From Opitutales bacterium (GTDB lineage: Bacteria; Verrucomicrobiota; Verrucomicrobiia; Opitutales; Oceanipulchritudinaceae), in NCBI GenBank assembly GCA_020831525.1, contig JAFIGH010000052.1:1-34952 (forward strand): a stretch of 34,952 bases of DNA, written 5' to 3'. Position numbers and translations under genes: made by a program. Numbering within the stretch: position 1 is the stretch's first letter; the number at the start of each line of letters is the position of its first letter. Positions 623 to 29,041 of this stretch are shown one piece after another. The notes under the pieces are model-generated. The model saw only the letters and a list, made by a program, of their open reading frames with translations. It was not told where the DNA came from and did no database searches.

Positions 623-1024
623 CTACCGGTCCGCGCCGGGAAGCATCAACCGGTGAACTCCGTCAATCAATTTGCCTACTTTGAAGTTGATCAATAGCCC
701 AACCGGAATGTCCAGCAAGCGCATGTAACTCAGCAACTGTGCCTTGTGGATGGCCAATACCTTATCCACACACTTCGCCTCGACGAGCAAAGCGTCCTCC
801 ACAAGCACATCGCAGCGTAAGTTCTCCTCCCGCGAAAAGCCCTTGTATTCAATCTTCACATACTTTTGCGTCGTGTGCCGGATATCCCGAAGATCGAATT
901 CACGGCAAAGGCACCATTCATAGATGGACTCTATCAGTCCCGGCCCCTTGTCACGGTGAACTTCAATCGCACTACCAATCACCGTTTCCGTCAACGACGA
1001 TGCCTTGATGAATTTCGGGTGCAT
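623..1024 (-). CDS. GxxExxY family protein (PD-(D/E)XK-like fold)
   Basis: This 133-residue protein belongs to the GxxExxY family, known from many environmental bacteria and related in fold to PD-(D/E)XK nucleases. Its biochemical role is not established. The signature is visible as G29-L-I-E32-S-I-Y35, preceded by the usual helix 'TETVIGSAIEVHR'. Further on are 'LRCDVLVEDALLVEAK', the likely D-x(n)-E-x-K core, and 'QLLSYMRLLDIPVGLLINF', which is typical of the family's C-terminal half. The frame is open upstream to 1183, but homology begins at ATG 1024, where AGGAAAT lies just upstream as a ribosome site. The upstream extension reads through repeat DNA. The gene sits alone between hairpin repeats, and its last codons abut the third tandem unit. 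Confidence 0.85.
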   Translation of the reverse strand: MHPKFIKASSLTETVIGSAIEVHRDKGPGLIESIYEWCLCREFDLRDIRHTTQKYVKIEYKGFSREENLRCDVLVEDALLVEAKCVDKVLAIHKAQLLSYMRLLDIPVGLLINFKVGKLIDGVHRLMLPGADR

Positions 1025-1140
1025 ATTTCCTAGTTCATGGTATCCGAAGCAACTTGCCAAGCCGCAATGTGCCAAACTTTCCTGCTGCAATTTGCTGAAC
1101 GCTCCGGGTCCCGCTCCACCGCTCTTCAACCGCTGTGTTT

Positions 1141-1240
1141 GAACAGGAGGTAGCGGAGGGATTTTGCCGATTCCCTGGACCATGGCGTGGATGGGAAGCC
1201 TACAAGGAGTCAGGCAAACAGCGTCTCACCTCTTCTGTAA
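1141..1240. repeat. Degenerate copy of the AACAGGAGG hairpin element
   Basis: The left arm GAACAGGAGGTAGCGGAGGG at 1141-1160 matches the tandem array. The right arm is eroded to 'CACCTCTTCTGTAAAAT' near 1227-1243. The interior shares 'CCATGGCGTGGATGGGA' and 'GGAGTCAGGCA' with array unit 3 (about 517-560), so this copy is closest to unit 3. Confidence 0.6.
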
Positions 1241-5718: not shown

Positions 5719-6639
5719 ATGGAGACTCCGGAGAAGCCCCTCTACAGCGACGCCCGCGAGGCGAGCCATATCTATTTCCTGCCCAACCTGATGACGGCGG
5801 GCAACCTGTTCTGCGGGTATGTCGCTGTCATCCGCTGCATCCAGGCGAAGTTCACGGCGACGGCGGACGAGGCGGCGGTAGCCCTCGATACAATCGCACG
5901 CACCCCGCAGGAATACTACGAGCAGGCGGTGTGGTTCATCCTTGCGGCGGTGGTCTTCGACATCCTCGACGGGCGCATGGCGCGGCTCACGCGCAAGGAA
6001 TCGCTCTTCGGCAAGGAGTTCGACTCCATCGCGGACATCGTGTCGTTCGGGATGGCCCCGGCGCTGCTCGTGTTTTTCCTCCTCCTCTCGCCGACAGCGG
6101 AGTTTCCCCTCGTGCGCACGCTGGGCGGGTTGGTCGGTTTCTTTTACCTGCTCTGCGCGGCGGTGCGGCTGGCGCGCTACAACGTCCTGACCTCGCCTCT
6201 GCTCAAACCGGCGGCGGGAATTCCGAAGTATGACTTCATGGGCCTGCCCGTGCCCGCCGCGGCCGGGATGATCTCGTCCCTCGTTATGGTCATCAACCGC
6301 ACGGAGTCGCAGGTGTTCACACTCTTCCTGCCCGTCATCCTCATCCTCATCGCGGTGCTCATGGTCAGTCCGGTGCGCTACCCGAGCCTGAAGACGATCG
6401 GATTCCGCACGCGCATGGGCTTCCGTTCGTTCATCCTCATCGCAGTCGTCATCGTCGTCGTTTTCATGTTCCATTACTGGGCGATCGCGGCGGTCTTCGC
6501 CGCCTATGTGCTCTACGGGCTGGCCGCTCATGTCTTCCCCGGACGGCTGCCCGACCTTTTTTTCCCGCCCACAAAAACTTTTCCACAGGAGCCCGCGAAC
6601 GACTCCGGTGGAGACGGTGAACAGAGTGTGGATAAGTGA
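5719..6639 (+). CDS. pssA: CDP-diacylglycerol-serine O-phosphatidyltransferase
   Basis: This integral membrane enzyme transfers a phosphatidyl group from CDP-diacylglycerol to L-serine, the first step toward phosphatidylethanolamine. The CDP-alcohol phosphotransferase signature is complete: D84-G85-x2-A88-R89-x8-G98-x3-D102-x3-D106. The N-terminal 'FLPNLMTAGNLFCGY' and the later 'MVSPVRYPSLK' segment are characteristic of the PssA branch over other CDP-alcohol transferases. Several hydrophobic helices follow, notably 'SFILIAVVIVVVFMFHYW' near the C-terminus. At 306 residues it is somewhat longer than the usual 240-270, partly through an insertion at about 45-66. The C-terminal codons contain two sequences that read as DnaA boxes (6579-6587, 6627-6635). 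Confidence 0.93.
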   Translation: METPEKPLYSDAREASHIYFLPNLMTAGNLFCGYVAVIRCIQAKFTATADEAAVALDTIARTPQEYYEQAVWFILAAVVFDILDGRMARLTRKESLFGKEFDSIADIVSFGMAPALLVFFLLLSPTAEFPLVRTLGGLVGFFYLLCAAVRLARYNVLTSPLLKPAAGIPKYDFMGLPVPAAAGMISSLVMVINRTESQVFTLFLPVILILIAVLMVSPVRYPSLKTIGFRTRMGFRSFILIAVVIVVVFMFHYWAIAAVFAAYVLYGLAAHVFPGRLPDLFFPPTKTFPQEPANDSGGDGEQSVDK

Positions 6640-6806
6640 AGGGTTGCTCTTGTGCCCGCTCCCGCGCCCACTTCGCTCCACTGCTTCCCGACAACGGGGT
6701 AGTGCCGTAACTCCATGAGGCCGAAGCCCTTGACCCGGTTGCCGACATATCCACGGACTATAAGAAGAAGAAGAGTGTTTTAGATTCTAATCTATATACA
6801 TAGTCT
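6579..6806. other. Candidate origin-like region before dnaN
   Basis: The segment combines TTTTCCACA (6579-6587), a perfect DnaA-box complement TGTGGATAA (6627-6635) and a weaker ATATCCACG (6747-6755, two mismatches to TTATCCACA). An AT-rich stretch at about 6757-6806 ('TATAAGAAGAAGAAGAG', 'TTTTAGATTCTAATC', 'TATATACATAG') is exceptional in this GC-rich window. The segment lies between pssA and dnaN, and dnaN often flanks chromosomal origins. The first two boxes are inside the pssA 3' end. dnaA itself is not in the window, and a perfect box also occurs inside an unrelated gene at 772-780, so this remains a candidate. Confidence 0.45.
6627..6635 (-). promoter_or_regulatory. DnaA-box match (TTATCCACA on the minus strand)
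   Basis: An exact match to the consensus 9-mer, overlapping the last codons of pssA and 245 bases before the dnaN start. It could serve origin function or DnaA control of dnaN. A single match of this length can also arise by chance. Confidence 0.45.
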
Positions 6807-6815
6807 TCCGCCTGT

Positions 6816-6831
6816 GTCCGCCGGGGCGGAC
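6816..6831. promoter_or_regulatory. Inverted repeat in the dnaN leader
   Basis: GTCCGCC-GG-GGCGGAC is a perfect 7-bp inverted repeat with a 2-bp centre, located 48 bases before the dnaN ATG and just after the AT-rich stretch. It could be a repressor site or a leader hairpin. Nothing shows which. Confidence 0.35.
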
Positions 6832-6879
6832 GAATTTGCTTTGCAATGGAGGCCTCAACCCCTTGAATTCGCCCCGTAT

Positions 6880-8010
6880 ATGAAATTTACGATCAACCGG
6901 GATCACTTCTCCAGCGGCTTGCAGCAGGTGCTCAACGTCGTCGGCACCCGGGCCACGATGCCCATCCTCAGCAACGTCCTCATCGAGGCTGGTGAAGACG
7001 TTATCTCGCTGACGACGACGAATTTGGACCTTGGGATCTCCTGCCGCATCAAGGCTCAGGTGAAAGAACGGGGCAGCCTCACCCTCCCGGTCCGCAAGCT
7101 CTTCAGCATCGTGCGGGAGCTGCCGAGCCTCGAAGTAGACGTGGAGACCTACTCGAACAACCAAGCCAAACTTACCTCGGGGACCTCTCTCTTCCGCATC
7201 ATGGGCATCGGGGCGGACGAGTTTCCGCCGTTGCCGACCTTTGCCGACGAGCACAGCTTTGTCCTCCAGCAGACGGATCTCCACCGCATGCTCAAGAGCG
7301 TGTCCTACGCCCAGTCGACGGACGAGACGCGCTACATCATGAACGGCGTCTTCTTCTCTTTCGACGAGGACAAGCTGACCCTCGCCGCAACCGACGGGCG
7401 CCGCCTCGCCGTCATGAGCAAGGAGCTGGAGGTGACCGACGAGAACCGCGGCAAGCTCATCCTCCCGGCCAAGACCGTGGCGGAGGTCGAGCGGCTCCTC
7501 GGGCAGGGCGACCAGGTGCGCATCGTCTTCAATGAGCGGCAGGTGGCCTTCGAGATCAACACCGGCGACGATGCCCGCGAAGGCGGCCTCACGGACAGCA
7601 TCTACCTCGTCTCGAAGATCGTCGAAGGCAACTACCCGAACTACCGGCAGGTGATCCCGAGCGAGAACGACCGGCACATCCGCCTCAACCGCGAATCCTT
7701 TGCCAACTGCGTGCGCCGCGCCGCGCTCGTGACGAGCGAGAAGAACAACTCGGTGAAGGTCCATGTGAAGGAGAACGTCCTCGAGGTGACCGGGTCGAGC
7801 GCGGAGGTCGGCGACGCCAATGTGTCCATTCCCGTCGACTACGAAGGCCCGGACGTGACCGTTGCCTTCAACCCCGCCTTTCTCCTCGATCCGCTCAAAG
7901 CGCTCTCCCGTGACGAAGTCATTTTCGAGTTCAAGGACGAGCTGAGCCCCGGTGTCGTCCGCACGCCCGACAGCTTTCTCTGCGTCGTCATGCCGTTGCG
8001 GTTGAGCTGA
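6880..8010 (+). CDS. dnaN: DNA polymerase III beta subunit (sliding clamp)
   Basis: The beta clamp encircles DNA as a dimer and tethers DNA polymerase III and other factors. The 376-residue product is full length, with three clamp domains. Recognisable are the N-terminal '[36 protein letters not shown]' start (in blocks), '[14 protein letters not shown]' in domain 2 and the terminal 'VVMPLRLS', the conserved MP-x-RL end that forms part of the protein-binding pocket. The start at 6880 matches the family. The frame opens further to 6814 but only through leader DNA. No Shine-Dalgarno lies within 20 bases of the ATG. An origin-like region lies upstream and an unknown membrane protein gene follows after 72 bp. 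Confidence 0.97.
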
Positions 8011-11638: not shown

Positions 11639-11995
11639 CGGCGGGTTAGACTTGGGATGACGGTTTTGAATGACACCCATTTGCACGCGCGCGTGAGTTG
11701 GCAACAACGGCGTATCCAAATCTGCCCGAAGTTTTACCGGACTGTAACACCGCGCGCCGCAGGAACCGCAGGTCGCCCAAGTCGGACCCCCGCCCGCGTA
11801 AAGCGCTCCTTACATTCATTTGCCGCGTCCTTCGACGTTCGCCCCCGCGGTCTCGGTTGGGGCCGCGAGCCCGGCAACTATGTGCGGAGACAATGGGATG
11901 CGATTGAGAGTCCCGTTATACCCCTGCGGAGCGGCGGAGATGACAATCTGCTTTTACGCTCGCCATGGGGGTTCAGGGTGTTTTGCTATCGGGCT
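11639..11995. other. Divergent control region between protease and lemA
   Basis: About 357 bases without a gene. It must contain the promoters for the subtilase (leftward) and lemA (rightward), but I see no convincing -35/-10 pair. A 'AGTTTTACCGGACTGTAACAC' patch, in two blocks near 11729-11750, is the least GC-rich part and the most promoter-like. No repeat-family copies were noticed here. Confidence 0.4.
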
Positions 11996-12598
11996 ATGTC
12001 TGGTGCAATGATCACGCTCTTGGTCCTATTGGGCTTTTTCGTGCTGCTCGCGTTGTACGCGGTGGCGGTGTACAACAGCTTGGTTTCGCTGCGGAACCGT
12101 TTCAAGAATGCCTTCGCGCAGATCGATGTGCAGTTGAAACGTCGCTACGACCTGATCCCGAACCTCGTGGAAACGGCGAAGGGCTACCTGAAGCACGAGC
12201 GCGAGACGCTGGAAGGGGTCATCAAGGCGCGCAACGCAGCGGCCTCGGCGGAGTCGAAGGCGGCGGCGGATCCCGGCGATCCCAACGCGATCAAGGGCCT
12301 TATCGGCGCGGAGACGGCGCTGACCGGAGCGATGGGGCGGTTTTTTGCCCTCGCGGAGGCGTATCCCGACCTGAAGGCGAACCAGAACATGATGCAGCTC
12401 ACAGAGGAGCTGTCGTCGACGGAGAACCGCGTGGCATTTGCACGGCAGGCCTACAACGATAACGTGATGTCCTACAACACGCGGCGCGAGCAGTTCCCGG
12501 CAGTCATCTTCGCGGGCGCTTTCGGCTTCCAGCCGGCGACCCTTTTCGAGATCCAGGACGCCGGCGAACGCGAGGCGCCGAAGGTGTCCTTTTCCTGA
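11996..12598 (+). CDS. lemA: LemA family protein
   Basis: A 200-residue membrane-anchored coiled-helix protein. One N-terminal transmembrane helix ('MITLLVLLGFFVLLALYAVAVYN' in blocks, about 5-26) is followed by the family core 'SLRNRFKNAFAQIDVQLKRR' and 'YDLIPNLVETAKGYLKHE'. The later 'LKANQNMMQLTEELSSTENR' and 'FARQAYNDNVMSYNTRREQFP' segments are also diagnostic. The exact function of LemA is unclear. It is often encoded beside an M48 peptidase, as here, which supports a membrane-quality or stress-related role. The start could be 11996 or the ATG at 12008, and the longer frame from 11657 covers the divergent control region. The next gene begins 269 bases downstream. Confidence 0.92.
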   Translation: MSGAMITLLVLLGFFVLLALYAVAVYNSLVSLRNRFKNAFAQIDVQLKRRYDLIPNLVETAKGYLKHERETLEGVIKARNAAASAESKAAADPGDPNAIKGLIGAETALTGAMGRFFALAEAYPDLKANQNMMQLTEELSSTENRVAFARQAYNDNVMSYNTRREQFPAVIFAGAFGFQPATLFEIQDAGEREAPKVSFS

Positions 12599-12867
12599 TC
12601 CCAGAACGGGTGACGAAACCGACCGTATGCGCGCTATCCGGATATCGAGCGCGAAGCGCCTTGGAGTGCGGCGGGGACCGCCGCCTTCGGTGTTGCGCGA
12701 AGTAGCCCTGTGTCCGGTGCGCTGCCCGGAATGGCTCTCGGATGAGCAGGTGGCTCGAAAGTGGAGTGGGCGTCTCGCCCGCTGTTTGCGGAAGAGCGGC
12801 ATCCACAACTGAGCGCCGCTCTTTTTCGCATCCCCGCCTATTCAGCCAATCCAGCAAACTTACCTCC
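12599..12867. other. Intergenic region between lemA and the M48 peptidase
   Basis: This gap holds a fragment of the dispersed repeat family: 'GCGCGAAGCGCCTTGGA' (about 12649-12665) is the reverse complement of a block at 34752-34768, followed by 'GGCGGGGACCGCCGCC'. No gene is seen. The pair lemA/M48 is therefore probably not translationally coupled. Confidence 0.45.
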
Positions 12868-14835
12868 ATGGACTTCTTTCAATCGCAGGAAAAGGCGCGC
12901 AAGCGGACGATGCTCCTCGTCGTGCTCTTCGTCGTGGCCGTGATTCTTATTATCGCGGGCGTCTACGCCACGTTCACGGTGGCGGCGGCGTTCATGGTGG
13001 AGGAGACCCGTCCTCATGGGGAGACCGGGCCGGCGGTGAGCCTGTGGAGTCCGGGGCGGGCGCTTTTTGCGGCGGTCGTGGTTTTGGGCGTCGTGGGTTT
13101 TTCCGCGATGGGCAAGATCGCGAAGTTCTCGCGCGGCGGCGGGCCGGCGGTGGCGGAGTCGATGGGGGCGCGCCGCATCGATCCGGGGACGCGTGATCCG
13201 CAGGAGCGGCGCTTTTTCAATGTCGTCGAGGAGATGGCCATTGCGAGCGGCCTGCCGGTGCCGGCGGTCTATGTGCTGGACAAGGAGGAAGGCATCAACG
13301 GCTTTGCGGCGGGCAACCGTCCGGACGACGCGGCGGTGGCCCTCACGCGCGGGGCGCTGGAGGCACTCGACCGCGATGAATTGCAGGGCGTCGTAGCGCA
13401 TGAGTTTAGTCACATTCTCAACGGCGACATGCGCATGAACATCCGGCTCGCGGGTGTGCTCTTCGGATTGCTCGTGCTCTCCATCATCGGCAACGGGCTG
13501 CTCCGCGCGGCTTTCCGCGGCAGTCTTTATCGCGGCATGACGCGGCGCGGGGGCGGGCGGGGAAACAACGGCGGCATGCTCGTCATCGCGTTTGTCGGCG
13601 TGGCTCTCTTTCTCCTCGGGCTCATCGGGCAGTTTTTCGGGCGGCTGATCCAGGCGGCGATCTCGCGGCAGCGCGAGTTTCTGGCGGACGCCGCCGCCGT
13701 GCAGTTCACGCGCAATCCGCAGGGGATCAGCGGCGCCCTGCAGCGCATCGGGGCGGCCTCGCGGCGCGGCAAGGTGGAGGATTCGCAGGCGGAGACGGCG
13801 GCCCACTTCTTTTTCGCCAACGCCATGCACGTGCGCGTCAACGGCTTGCTCGCCACGCACCCGCCGTTGCCCAAGCGCATCCGCGCGGTCGATCCGGCGT
13901 GGGACGGAAAGTACGAGGCGCGCAAGAAGCGCCCTGCACCGGCTCCGGCACCGAAGGAACCGGCGAAAGCGGCGGGCGGGCGGTCCGGCGGCGGCGCGCC
14001 CCTCTTTGGGCATGGAGGATCGACGCAGGAGAAGATTGCCTCCGGCGTGGCCCTCGCGGCGTTTCTTCAGGCCATCGGCAGTGTCTCGCCGGAGGCGGTG
14101 GCCCGCGCGCGCGAACTCATCGCGGGCTTGCCGGAGGCCCTCCGGGAGGCGGTCCACGAGCCGCAAGGATCGCGGGCGACGGTGGCGGCCCTCCTCCTCG
14201 GTGCCGATTCCGACGTGCGTGCGAAGCAGGTGGCGCTCCTGCGCAAGGCGTTTTCGGATGAATTTGCCCTGCGCGTGACGCGGCTCTTTCCACATACCTT
14301 CGCGCTTGCTGACACGGGGCGCATGCCCGTTCTCGAACTGTGCCTGCCGGCCCTCAAACAGGGCGCGGACGATGCGGACGCCTTTGTCGACCGCATGCGC
14401 GAGGTGGCCGATGTGGACGGACAGTTGCACTTGTTTGAGTGCCTCATCCTCGCCGTGTTGGAGGCGCGCCTGCGCGGAACCAAGGGTGTGCGGGAGTCCG
14501 CCGCGCGGCTCGACGGCCCGGCGGCGGCCACCGTCCTCTCCGGCTTTGCACGGATCGAGGCCCCCGACGAGGCCGGGGCCAAGGCGATCTTTACCGAAAC
14601 CATGAAGGAACGCGGTATGTCCGGGACGGATTTCAACCCGCCCGAGGACAATGCCGCCCTCGAGCGCGCGCTAGTAAAGCTGCGCGGGCTCAATCCCGGT
14701 GACCGCAAGCAACTCCTTTCCGCTGCGGCGTGTATCGTGTGGCACAACGGCGAAGTGTCGCCCGCCGAGGGCGAGTGGCTACGCGCCCTTGCCGCCGTCC
14801 TCGAGTGCCCGGTGCCGTCCATGGCGGAAAAATAG
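12868..14835 (+). CDS. M48 family membrane metalloprotease with TerB-like C-terminus
   Basis: A 655-residue HtpX/Ste24-type zinc peptidase. Two N-terminal hydrophobic helices (about 14-42 and 64-80) precede the catalytic domain with HEFSH (178-182; H178 and H182 bind zinc, E179 is catalytic) and the third ligand E270 in 'SRQREFLAD'. Two more helices lie at about 196-213 and 237-258. 'LLATHPPLPKRIRAV' at about 327-341 closes the peptidase domain. A low-complexity Pro/Ala linker leads to a long C-terminal region (about 390-655). Its end, 'CIVWHNGEVSPAEGEWLRAL' and onward, resembles a TerB-like helical domain. The start at 12868 gives the proper N-terminus, and CCTCC precedes it instead of a Shine-Dalgarno. 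Confidence 0.92.
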   Translation: MDFFQSQEKARKRTMLLVVLFVVAVILIIAGVYATFTVAAAFMVEETRPHGETGPAVSLWSPGRALFAAVVVLGVVGFSAMGKIAKFSRGGGPAVAESMGARRIDPGTRDPQERRFFNVVEEMAIASGLPVPAVYVLDKEEGINGFAAGNRPDDAAVALTRGALEALDRDELQGVVAHEFSHILNGDMRMNIRLAGVLFGLLVLSIIGNGLLRAAFRGSLYRGMTRRGGGRGNNGGMLVIAFVGVALFLLGLIGQFFGRLIQAAISRQREFLADAAAVQFTRNPQGISGALQRIGAASRRGKVEDSQAETAAHFFFANAMHVRVNGLLATHPPLPKRIRAVDPAWDGKYEARKKRPAPAPAPKEPAKAAGGRSGGGAPLFGHGGSTQEKIASGVALAAFLQAIGSVSPEAVARARELIAGLPEALREAVHEPQGSRATVAALLLGADSDVRAKQVALLRKAFSDEFALRVTRLFPHTFALADTGRMPVLELCLPALKQGADDADAFVDRMREVADVDGQLHLFECLILAVLEARLRGTKGVRESAARLDGPAAATVLSGFARIEAPDEAGAKAIFTETMKERGMSGTDFNPPEDNAALERALVKLRGLNPGDRKQLLSAAACIVWHNGEVSPAEGEWLRALAAVLECPVPSMAEK

Positions 14836-24952: not shown

Positions 24953-26623
24953 ATGTTCTCTCGCTTGTCCTATGCTTTTGCCGGAGGCCTCCCGTACAGG
25001 TCCGGCGTGATATTCCTTGCGGCATTTGCCGCGCTCGCGGGAGGCGTTTTCGCCGCCGCGGGTTCGCTTGCGGAACGTCTGGAGGCGTTCTCGCCTCCGG
25101 TCGGTGGCGCGGTTGTGCGGATGGGAACGCCGGGGGCCTACGAGACCGCGACGACCGGCGTTGTTCCCGGGGGCGTCCCACCGGAGCAGGTTGTATACGA
25201 GATCGGGTCGATCACAAAGCTCTTCACTGCCCTCCTCCTCGCCCAGGCGGTCGTCGAGGAACGGGTCCGGCTGGACACGACGGTCGCTGAGATTCTCGGT
25301 TCGGACTTCGACTTTGCCGACGAACGGGTGGGCCGTATCCGGCTCGTGGAATTGGCCACCCACACATCCGGGTTGCCGCGCTTGCCGGAAAATCTGGCCG
25401 ATGCGGCCGATCCCGCCGATCCCTACAACGGCTACGACAGCACCCGTTTGCGCGCGTTTCTCGCCATTCACCAAATGAAGGAACCGGAAGAGGCGGGCGC
25501 GTATCCGGTCGCCTATTCCAATCTCGGGCCGGGGCTCCTTGGGTACCTCCTCGGTCACATGGAAGAAAACACCTTCGAGGCGGTTTTGCGGGAGCGGATT
25601 CTCAGGCCGCTCGGCCTGCACGATACTCATTTCTCCGTGCCGGAGGCGGCGGCCGCACGTGTCGTGCCGCCCTTTTCCGGAGTCGAGGAGGTCCGGCCAT
25701 GGAACTTCGACAGCCTTGCCGGTTGCGGCGCTTTGCGGTCGACAGTGGCGGACCTCACCCGCTTCGCCGAGGCTCTCCTTGCGCCCGAGGCGAGCCCTTT
25801 CGCCGAAGCGATCCGCCTCCTCTTTGAGCCGCGCGCTCCTCTTGGCGGAGGGCATATGGGACTGGGCATCTTTCTCGAATCCATTCACGGGGAACAACGC
25901 GCGTTTCACGACGGCGGAACCGGTGGGTATTCCGCGAGCCTGATCCTCACTCCGGCCACTCGCCATGCAACCATTGTTCTGGCGAATCAAGCGGGCGGCT
26001 TTGCTACCCGCGTGAGCACAGGTTTGCTGGCGCCCGATGCCGACGGGGATCCGGCGCCCGTCAGTAGCGCGGCGGATCCCGCCCTTTCCCTTGCGGCTTA
26101 CGAGGGCGAATACCGTCTTAGCGCGGACGCGCTTTTCCTCATCCGGGCGCACGAGGATCGTCTCTACCTGCGCCTCACCGGACAGATGGCGCTCCCTGTG
26201 CGCCCCCTCGGCGGGCATCGCTTTGAGAACGCCGATGTCGGGGCCGTGATCGAGTTTGCCACCGGAGAGAGCGGCGACGTCGAGCGGCTCACCCTCCATC
26301 AAAGCGGGCGTAGTTTGCCCGCGCCGCGGATTCGCCAAACCCCGCGTTACGACCTGCTACTGCCCGAAGGTGCCGCGGAAGCCTACGCGGGGCGCTACGA
26401 GCTTGCCGCCGGGATGGTCTTCGACGTCCGCGCGGTCCGGCGTCAGTTGATTGTCCAACTCACCGGCCAGCCCGCCATTCCCGTCCTCGCAGCCGGCGGC
26501 GACCGGTTCGAATACGATGTCGTTGTCGCCGCGATCGAATTCCAGCGCGGGGAGGACGGAGCGGTCAGCGGTCTTGTTCTTCACCAGAATAACCAGGAGA
26601 TGCCCGCCCGGAGAATCGAATGA
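24953..26623 (+). CDS. Secreted beta-lactamase-fold serine hydrolase
   Basis: A 556-residue class C beta-lactamase/esterase family protein. An N-terminal hydrophobic stretch (about 17-36) acts as a signal peptide or anchor. Catalytic motifs are S86-I-T-K89 (SxxK), Y188-S-N190 (YxN) and 'HDGGTGG' in the position of the KTG box. Residues from about 390 on carry two related beta-rich segments, 'YEGEYRLSADALFLIRAHED' and 'YAGRYELAAGMVFDVRAVRR', each followed by 'LYLRLTGQ'/'LIVQLTGQ' repeats. These are like the C-terminal DUF3471-type extensions of such hydrolases. The substrate is unknown; roles in peptidoglycan or ester hydrolysis are possible. It lies alone, 134 bp from the divergent SRPBCC gene. 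Confidence 0.9.
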   Translation: MFSRLSYAFAGGLPYRSGVIFLAAFAALAGGVFAAAGSLAERLEAFSPPVGGAVVRMGTPGAYETATTGVVPGGVPPEQVVYEIGSITKLFTALLLAQAVVEERVRLDTTVAEILGSDFDFADERVGRIRLVELATHTSGLPRLPENLADAADPADPYNGYDSTRLRAFLAIHQMKEPEEAGAYPVAYSNLGPGLLGYLLGHMEENTFEAVLRERILRPLGLHDTHFSVPEAAAARVVPPFSGVEEVRPWNFDSLAGCGALRSTVADLTRFAEALLAPEASPFAEAIRLLFEPRAPLGGGHMGLGIFLESIHGEQRAFHDGGTGGYSASLILTPATRHATIVLANQAGGFATRVSTGLLAPDADGDPAPVSSAADPALSLAAYEGEYRLSADALFLIRAHEDRLYLRLTGQMALPVRPLGGHRFENADVGAVIEFATGESGDVERLTLHQSGRSLPAPRIRQTPRYDLLLPEGAAEAYAGRYELAAGMVFDVRAVRRQLIVQLTGQPAIPVLAAGGDRFEYDVVVAAIEFQRGEDGAVSGLVLHQNNQEMPARRIE

Positions 26624-27925: not shown

Positions 27926-28045
27926 GTGCCCGCGTGTGCCCCGCATATCCTGGCGGCCATTGCGGGCAGAGGTCGAAAACGCTTGGCGTGCCCAATCCGC
28001 GTATCGTAGAAAAACCCTACTGCGAATACTACCCATGGACCCTCG
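27926..28045. repeat. Dispersed ~125-bp repeat, copy 2
   Basis: This is the partner of 26760-26886 in the same orientation, sharing a 31-base identical core and many flanking matches. It follows the DUF4160/DUF2442 pair, so the two copies bracket that module as direct repeats. Confidence 0.7.
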
Positions 28046-28075
28046 CCTACAGTTGAACCACTTCTCGCGGCCTCG

Positions 28076-28125
28076 ACTGTGCGACAGCGCAGAGGGGGCC
28101 GCCGCCTTTGCCAGGGCCTCGGTGG
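28076..28125. repeat. Left flanking repeat of the AT-rich membrane gene
   Basis: ACTGTGCGACAGCGCAGAGG and the following GGGCC...CAGGGCCTCGG resemble 29042-29091 in the same orientation (about three quarters identical by eye). The two bracket the gene at 28190. Confidence 0.5.
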
Positions 28126-28189
28126 ACAGGTGTGAGGGTGCCGAGTGCCGACAGACGACGGGCTTTCCTGCCATAATGCCAGAAGAGCG

Positions 28190-28987
28190 ATGAAGTTAAG
28201 AAAATTGAGAACAACGGCCTATCTTAAATGGGGTTGGCAAAAGAAGGCGTGGATTTGGACTTTTGGGTTCTCTGTATTTTTTGCGTTAATGAGTTGGCCG
28301 ATGCTGAGTTCTTTGCCAAAGCCGGAAAAGGTGGATGTCGCAACGATTACCGCAAAGGGAACTCGAACAGATGCGATCGTGAAATCGATTCGTGAGAATA
28401 GGAGCATATCGGTGAATGGGCAGAACCCTATACTGATTGGGCTTGTATTTTCTGATGCAGGCACGGAGCGATTTGTTGAGCATCAGACGATGGACTTCGC
28501 CTATGTCAGCACGCTCAGTGTAGGAAACGCTGTGCCCATATTGTATTATCAAGGAAAAGCGGTGATCGACGGTATAGGATATTATCGGTTTCCGTACGGA
28601 ATTTTCAATCTGTTCTATGTCATTCCTGTTGTTTTCACTGTGATTCCCGGAATATATCTTGTCTGGTTTTTCCGTAGAAAAGTGAAACTCTATACGGTCG
28701 GTTTGGAATCCCAGGCTGTAGTGGAAAGTCTCGAACCGTTGTATTTTATCAGGTCTATCGGATTTCGGTCGCTATCAAAACATCAATACAGGGTATATTA
28801 CAGCTTTATTGATCAAAACGAAAACGTTGTCACCGGCTCTGAAGTGATCACCGATAAGTTGAAGATCGATTCACTGTCGAAGGACAGTGTATTGGATATC
28901 TTGTATCTGGATTCGGATCCCGAGATAAACTGCCTCTATGAAAAATTCCTCGTTAAGCAGAGCGAGAGCCGGCGAGGCGCGACATGA
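28190..28987 (+). CDS. Two-helix membrane protein with DUF3592-like segments
   Basis: A 265-residue protein with a basic N-terminus and two transmembrane helices (about 21-41 and 138-161). The segment between them ('TDAIVKSIRENRSISVNGQN', then 'LVFSDAGTERFVEH' and 'SVGNAVPILYYQGKAVI') resembles DUF3592, a small beta-rich domain with a 'G-x-x-V-x-V-L-Y-x-x' turn. The part after the second helix ('GLESQAVVESLEPLYFIRSI', 'YRVYYSFIDQNENVVTGSEV', 'SVLDILYLDSDPE') looks like a second such segment. Function is unknown. The gene is clearly more AT-rich (about 43 % GC by eye) than its neighbours and is flanked by direct repeats, which suggests acquisition. The start at 28190 precedes the basic N-terminus; the frame is open to 28145. 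Confidence 0.72.
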   Translation: MKLRKLRTTAYLKWGWQKKAWIWTFGFSVFFALMSWPMLSSLPKPEKVDVATITAKGTRTDAIVKSIRENRSISVNGQNPILIGLVFSDAGTERFVEHQTMDFAYVSTLSVGNAVPILYYQGKAVIDGIGYYRFPYGIFNLFYVIPVVFTVIPGIYLVWFFRRKVKLYTVGLESQAVVESLEPLYFIRSIGFRSLSKHQYRVYYSFIDQNENVVTGSEVITDKLKIDSLSKDSVLDILYLDSDPEINCLYEKFLVKQSESRRGAT

Positions 28988-29041
28988 CAACCCCTGCCGG
29001 TCGTGCCGTTTCGGTGTATGGGCTTGACCAGGTGACATTGC

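Follow-up and report, generated by a model that had tools for sequence, protein, structure and literature searches.

In the excerpts of PMC7198777 and PMC4674748, an oriC beside dnaN with dnaA located apart is described for the cyanobacteria Synechococcus elongatus PCC 7942 and Cyanothece ATCC 51142, and origins overlapping membrane-protein genes are described for substrains of Synechocystis PCC 6803. Another closely comparable system is the basal unwinding system (BUS) of Bacillus subtilis oriC and its homologues, in which, according to the sections of these papers drawn on here, a DnaA box is followed by a short spacer rich in G+C, then by phased triplets, on the same strand and with the last T conserved, and by AT-rich DNA (PMC6669920, PMC8287927, PMC5295017). 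The published rule for a BUS comprises a DnaA box with at most two mismatches, a spacer of 0-16 bp and at least three consecutive 3'-NAN-5' triplets. Regarding the central base of these DnaA-trios, passages of PMC10721633 report that cytosine, unlike G, T or U, replaces the central adenine in B. subtilis with a similar strand-separation rate, that cytosine-substituted trios allow faster growth in vivo than those with G or T, that the central amine contacts Asn187 of DnaA, and that the sequences which DnaA homologues recognise are possibly varied. Part of PMC8287927 likewise suspects the existence of deviant trios that have no central A.

The window analysed in the present study is a whole contig (C112) of 34,952 bp from the 5.30-Mb draft genome, in 184 contigs, of a member of the Opitutales (G000), the DnaN of which is 98% identical to the DnaN of two Opitutales MAGs. 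Judged from its sequence and from that of its relatives, the junction of pssA and dnaN in this contig (about 6579-6803) is very probably the chromosomal origin, oriC. The features of the region are as follows.

5719-6639, plus strand: pssA (CDP-diacylglycerol-serine O-phosphatidyltransferase); NCBIfam TIGR00473, 115.8 bits, cut-off 107
6579-6587, plus strand: DnaA box 1, TTTTCCACA, one mismatch to TTATCCACA, within the pssA 3' end
6627-6635, minus strand: DnaA box 2, TTATCCACA, perfect, overlapping the last pssA codons and ending just before the stop codon
6747-6755, plus strand: DnaA box 3, ATATCCACG, two mismatches, adjoining the triplets (BUS-like)
6756-6759, no strand: spacer GACT, 4 nt, its length set by an ungapped model
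6760-6774, minus strand: five phased triplets, 3'-TAT TCT TCT TCT TCT-5', DnaA-trio-like and C-centred, on the strand that DnaA would hold
6778-6803, no strand: AT-rich stretch with a palindrome, a likely duplex-unwinding element; the AT-richest 30-mer of the contig begins at 6778
6880-8010, plus strand: dnaN (DNA polymerase III beta clamp); NCBIfam TIGR00663, 293.9 bits, cut-off 137.65

The NCBIfam matches over their cut-offs bear out the gene names pssA and dnaN given by the sequence-only reading. pssA also lies on the same strand as dnaN, 258-401 bp before it, in three complete relatives of other families (G047, G050 and G020), and is found 1.7 kb before dnaN in G006 and tens of kb off in G036 and G051; in genus g6, it is inverted. 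The dnaA gene of the window genome is on a different contig (C97), and is not adjacent to dnaN. As in the cyanobacterial origins, at least as the excerpts describe them, the candidate origin lies before dnaN, dnaA is separate, and there are few boxes and an AT-rich stretch, whereas the phylum is another one, the box is TTTTCCACA there and TTATTCACA-like here, pssA lies upstream, and the triplets are C-centred. The layout from box to AT-rich DNA is that of the BUS, the triplets of which, in the sections drawn on, read 3'-[G/A]AT-5', whereas those of this family of sites read 3'-T[A/C]T-5', with T as the first base and often C at the centre. In E. coli oriC, the bound strand of the unwinding region is pyrimidine-rich, which resembles the triplets of the window; unlike E. 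coli oriC, the origin in the window is at dnaN.

The one perfect and two imperfect DnaA-box-like sequences described by the sequence-only reading are present, and their coordinates place the first two in the 3' end of pssA. Its remark that boxes in a gene end are unusual did not hold as a peculiarity of this genome, since relatives repeatedly have a box on the minus strand roughly -220 to -323 from dnaN: counterparts of box 2 occur on the minus strand at a similar distance in G001, G002 and several further relatives, and the position of box 1 is kept in G002, and in G001 as TTTTTCACA. Just 3' of box 2 (6643-6653), a block, GTTGCTCTTGT, is partly kept in eight aligned family members and matches no box consensus. 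Box 3 is the best match of a model trained without the genus of the window and lies at -133 from dnaN; the box beside the triplets is weak in the window (ATATCCACG) and weaker in G001 (four mismatches). TTWTNCACA occurs three times in the window against 0.46 expected, and one of 100 shuffles reached three; the third copy (762) is far from the cluster in a separate ORF. That ORF (623-1183, minus strand) belongs to the GxxExxY family and contains a perfect TTATCCACA at 762. Across 47 genomes, 23 TTWTNCACA sites fall in the 500 bp before dnaN (0.99/kb), compared with 0-0.19/kb in each of 23 further 500-bp bins up to 6 kb from the gene, so that boxes cluster above chance before this gene. Since TTATCCACA shows no enrichment genome-wide (14 sites versus 12 for a reversed control), the arrangement and its conservation carry weight, not single boxes. 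Boxes alone do not define the conserved element described below either, because only 7 of the 14 plus-strand TTWTNCACA sites listed before dnaN are its own box.

The exceptional AT-rich stretch and the palindrome that had been noticed before dnaN were both found, next to the boxes. The AT-richest 30-mer (from 6778, 80% AT) and 40-mer (from 6759, 78% AT) of the whole 35-kb contig are located here, the palindrome TAGATT-CT-AATCTA occupies 6781-6794, and TAGATTCTAATCT of the AT-rich stretch is kept in G001 and G002. The 1-kb bin of lowest G+C (0.478) is 28001-29000, and the ORF at 28145-28987 has no Pfam match. Elsewhere in the window, an ORF with a MamQ match precedes one whose first half matches HtpX protease and which extends far at the C terminus (11657-14835, all below cut-offs); MamQ is related to LemA. 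The ORF at 24953-26623 carries a Beta-lactamase domain (PF00144) and DUF3471, each above its cut-off.

An ungapped position matrix was started from a handwritten seed; after refinement over 43 genomes, of which 34 were used, it yielded TTATTCACA-NNNN-ATAATAATAAGAAT, namely, a box, a 4-nt spacer, phased triplets and an AT-rich stretch. The mean G+C of the spacer is 63% in 38 genomes. The best match of the matrix was 94-133 bp before dnaN in all six held-out loci, and was before dnaN in 37 of 49 loci with the training loci included, the element starting 76-243 bp before the gene; in the other 12 dnaN regions, the element was not the best match near dnaN. A sequence-only model (R1) was built from 25 of these elements, with the genus of the window and G047, G050 and G020 left out. 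In its whole-genome searches, a first look picks candidates, of which at most 150 per genome (105 in the class search) are scored, and "best" refers to the best of those. In the window genome, where 150 of 156 candidates were scored, the best match is the site in the window (E 4.9e-5) and the next has E 0.22, which leaves a single such site. Among the candidates scored, the best match was at dnaN in four of six held-out genomes (G000, G002, G047 and G050), and in the last three of these it was the only match up to E 10; the match at dnaN came second in G020 (0.286 versus 0.234 elsewhere), the element was missed among the at most 150 candidates in G001, and no match was found at dnaA in the held-out genomes. 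DnaN itself has second, divergent homologues (31-34% identity) in G002:C297, G093:C27 and G063:C34.

In a class-wide search of 57 genomes, 11 had an R1 match at E<=0.01, eight of which were 22-88 bp before dnaN: G000, G029 (in training), G050, G105 and G100, and outside the order G093, G060 and G087. The matches away from dnaN were in G094, G058 and a second copy in G089. Among the candidates scored, the order of the window accounted for matches in six of nine genomes, five at dnaN, compared with five of 48 genomes outside it, three at dnaN. The element of G105 has a poor box, ATAAACCGC. In a search of 13 genomes, G033 (not in training) had a match at dnaN with E 0.0105; matches with E 0.03 to 0.84 away from dnaN in G005, G009, G017, G030, G032, G035 and G042 may be due to chance. 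A plain pattern (a box with at most two mismatches, 4 nt and four N[T/G]A) matched seven times in 1.57 Mb sampled from five genomes; three of these were the element where expected, in G047, G020 and G007, a repeat in G047 accounted for another three, and one was elsewhere in G020, with none in the sampled DNA of G050 and G051.

The triplets were read with the box oriented toward them as in Bacilli, so that the bound strand is 3'-T[A/C]T-5'. A reading on the upper strand (TAA/GAA) was rejected: Bacillaceae and lactobacillus origins (L032 and L034, by eye) show that the bound strand is the complement, with its last T conserved. Measured against the published BUS rule, the window has a box with two mismatches (ATATCCACG) and a spacer of 4 bp, and no box in 6480-6899 is followed by three NAN triplets at any spacer of 0-16; by its sequence, the site is thus BUS-like in layout and is not classed as a BUS under that rule. 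In the fixed register, 32 genomes score at least 19 with the matrix; of the 128 central positions in their triplets 1-4, 71 are A, 53 C, four T and none G, and G or C occupies only 19 of 256 flanking positions. The number of central C rises with the G+C of the fetched locus (Spearman rho 0.52, p 0.002, n=32, kinship not corrected). With 38 genomes (score of at least 13), at least three NAN in a row are present in 12, and at least three N[A/C]N in 32. The seed had A on the bound strand at centres 1-3 and 5 and C at the fourth, and the matrix partly favours regularity as such; since the seed had A there, C at the centres of the first three triplets is not derived from it. When any register and any spacer of 0-16 was allowed in the 330 bp before dnaN, with letter shuffles as the control, the strict rule was satisfied in 25 of 49 genomes versus 9-19 in shuffles, and the rule allowing C in 41 versus 19-32. 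Under the latter, box 1 of the window passes as well as box 3, and, therefore, only the fixed register carries weight. The DnaA of the window genome was aligned to 8btg_A, the numbering of which fits the residues named in the excerpts of PMC10721633; the capture residues Asn187, Ile190, Ile193, Arg202 and Glu228 of B. subtilis correspond to N207, L210, I213, R222 and E248, such that the residues of the BUS mechanism are present, with Leu for Ile190.

A minimum in GC skew had been proposed as the test of the origin, and in 20-kb samples from the three complete relatives the origin-type change was found at dnaN, not at dnaA. In G047 (4,815,747 bp), samples have negative skew between 2.16 and 4.538 Mb and positive skew between 4.558 Mb and, via zero, 2.06 Mb, with dnaN at 4.547 Mb. 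The change in G020 (2,633,965 bp) is at 2.294 Mb, beside dnaN (2.2922-2.2933 Mb), and the cumulative skew is locally lowest 404 bp ahead of the start of the gene. The coarse bracket in G050 (4,320,198 bp) spans 3.72 to 0.20 Mb, and the sole sampled stretch inside it, the dnaN-bearing 4.223-4.243 Mb, runs from negative to positive and is negative again in its last 4 kb. The distance from dnaA to dnaN is about 268 kb in G047, 1.02 Mb in G020 and 1.94 Mb in G050. Averaged over up to 49 dnaN regions, skew is negative in 10 of 10 upstream 1-kb bins and positive in 10 of 10 downstream (n per bin 2 to 49); single genomes are noisy, with downstream above upstream skew in 36 of 48 regions with both sides and the opposite order in 12. 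In the window contig, which belongs to a draft genome, only a local change is visible: cumulative skew is lowest 2.3 kb past the start of dnaN and about 2.4 kb from the element, close to it and not on it. Another cluster of boxes (four in 1.5 kb, on contig C180) was considered as a rival origin and rejected, since its skew is positive in all eight 2-kb bins without a sign change. In family f35 of the class (G067 and G094), the genomes are one-contig records with dnaN starting some 1.8 kb in, and these records may thus begin at dnaA-dnaN, unlike the order of the window.

The element is not confined to dnaN. In genus g6 (G007, G012, G014 and G016), the matrix found none in the four dnaN regions; R1 located it elsewhere in G007 (E 2.9e-6), G012 (2.4e-6) and G014 (0.005), and found none among the candidates scored in G016. 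In these three genomes, it precedes a gene with its best NCBIfam match to F0F1 ATP synthase subunit a (TIGR01131; 97.3, 95.6 and 98.5 bits, under the cut-off of 102.6), and a subunit c gene then follows (39.3, 39.5 and 43.5 bits, under the cut-off of 43.95), with TrmB on the other side of the element in G007. The oriC of E. coli is likewise near atp genes. One more box-like site lies between the moved element and the subunit a gene (L214 398, L215 1643 and L217 1508). The moved element of G007 is at 299 kb and dnaN at 458 kb, and the skew is too weak to separate the two as the change point. In G051, the best element is off dnaN at 537 kb of contig C2; skew is negative over 300-400 kb and positive over 660-760 kb, although a sample at 440 kb is positive as well. 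G089 has two copies, L251 (G089:C1:1490250-1490700) and L252 (G089:C2:107800-108300), one at dnaN and one elsewhere, which are alike over a 79-column local alignment; that at dnaN was found by the matrix and was unreported by R1 among the candidates scored. The second copy may be a second origin, a titration site or a rearrangement.

Considering these results, other explanations of the site need to be weighed. The boxes might regulate transcription of dnaN, with the TATAA-like element as a -10 box and the origin elsewhere; the start of the element 76-243 bp before dnaN in the 37 regions with their best match there, and TATAAT-like words within it, accord with such a promoter. However, skew changes sign at dnaN in the complete relatives, conservation has a 3-nt period, and g6 has the element beside F0F1 ATP synthase genes in three of four genomes and not at dnaN, because of which it is no mere dnaN promoter; this relocation, read from sequence, would be the best argument on the point, and we regard a DnaA-controlled promoter as highly improbable. 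More improbable still is an origin at dnaA, as in most bacteria, in which case the pssA-dnaN site would bind DnaA secondarily, by titration. A pair of box-like sequences some 320 bp upstream of the dnaA of this genome (L001 2693-2712; starts 2693 and 2704), TTTTCCACA and TTATCAACA, would fit it, and possibly reflect autoregulation instead; among nine further dnaA regions, skew is also without a clear sign in G045 and G036. An origin at dnaA was nevertheless rejected on the skew around that gene, which keeps a single sign across the five bins of G050 and likewise of G020, shows no lasting change at the dnaA of G047 (base 382), and is mostly negative (four of five bins) on contig C97 when the location of dnaA was checked as the sequence-only reading had proposed; R1 gave no match at dnaA either, among the candidates scored in the held-out genomes. 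The box cluster, the AT maximum, the conservation and the skew change at dnaN in three relatives instead support the origin which that reading had suspected here, as far as sequences can indicate. Points that weigh against it are the 12 dnaN regions where the element is not the best match, the 12 with the opposite skew order, the offset of the skew minimum in the window contig, the scarcity of the element at dnaN outside the order, the weakness of box 3, and the two box-like sites near dnaA.

It is a separate matter whether the triplets are DnaA-trios. A plain AT-rich unwinding region at the same place, where base composition alone would produce both the regularity of 3 nt and the A or C at the centre, is conceivable and appears rather unlikely. 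Such a region would account for the relationship between central C and locus G+C (Spearman 0.52 over 32 genomes, kinship not corrected), for three consecutive NAN in only 12 of 38 genomes at the fixed register, and for the many shuffles that satisfy the any-register rules, the C-allowed rule alone not being specific; moreover, the alignment was picked by a matrix that favours regularity. On the other hand, at the fixed register G+C letters occupy the central position (53 of 128) but rarely the flanking ones, and G is absent from the centre of the bound strand, which disfavours free composition because G would then equal C in frequency and the flanks would be touched. We lean slightly toward the reading that Opitutales origins carry natural C-centred DnaA-trios, in which A and C, the exocyclic amine of which fits the DnaA pocket, are swapped at the captured centre and little else changes, G+C-rich genomes take C, and the module moves between loci (dnaN, atp) independently of dnaA; the shuffle control brought this leaning down a little from a somewhat firmer one.

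At such an origin, DnaA would bind both boxes located in the 3' end of pssA as well as the weak one at 6747. An ATP-DnaA filament would extend from this last box across the 4-nt spacer, reach the lower strand of the triplets at 6760-6774 and capture the central amino base (A or C) of each. The AT-rich stretch at 6778-6803 would then melt, with the helicase loaded there, and forks would leave both ways, dnaN being read away from the origin.

What is new in this finding is the C-centred triplets, whereas a dnaN-side origin is of a known kind. A search of the literature by title or abstract start found neither a dnaN-side origin nor a DnaA-trio in Verrucomicrobiota or Opitutales; DoriC may hold predictions for this phylum, and the location of the origin may therefore be known already. 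The excerpts of PMC10721633 and PMC5295017 do not mention natural trios with a central C.

For much of this order, which is large and consists mostly of uncultured members, the present results locate the origin at dnaN and apart from dnaA, and a record rotated to dnaA (e.g. G047) consequently does not begin at its origin. They also suggest that origin finders demanding a central A overlook a class of origins. Taken together, these loci provide naturally occurring examples on which to examine amine recognition as the model of DnaA-trio capture, a model that rests, in the excerpts consulted, on altered B. subtilis scaffolds and origins, and an unusual variant of DNA opening in this order would make the biochemical cytosine result testable in nature.
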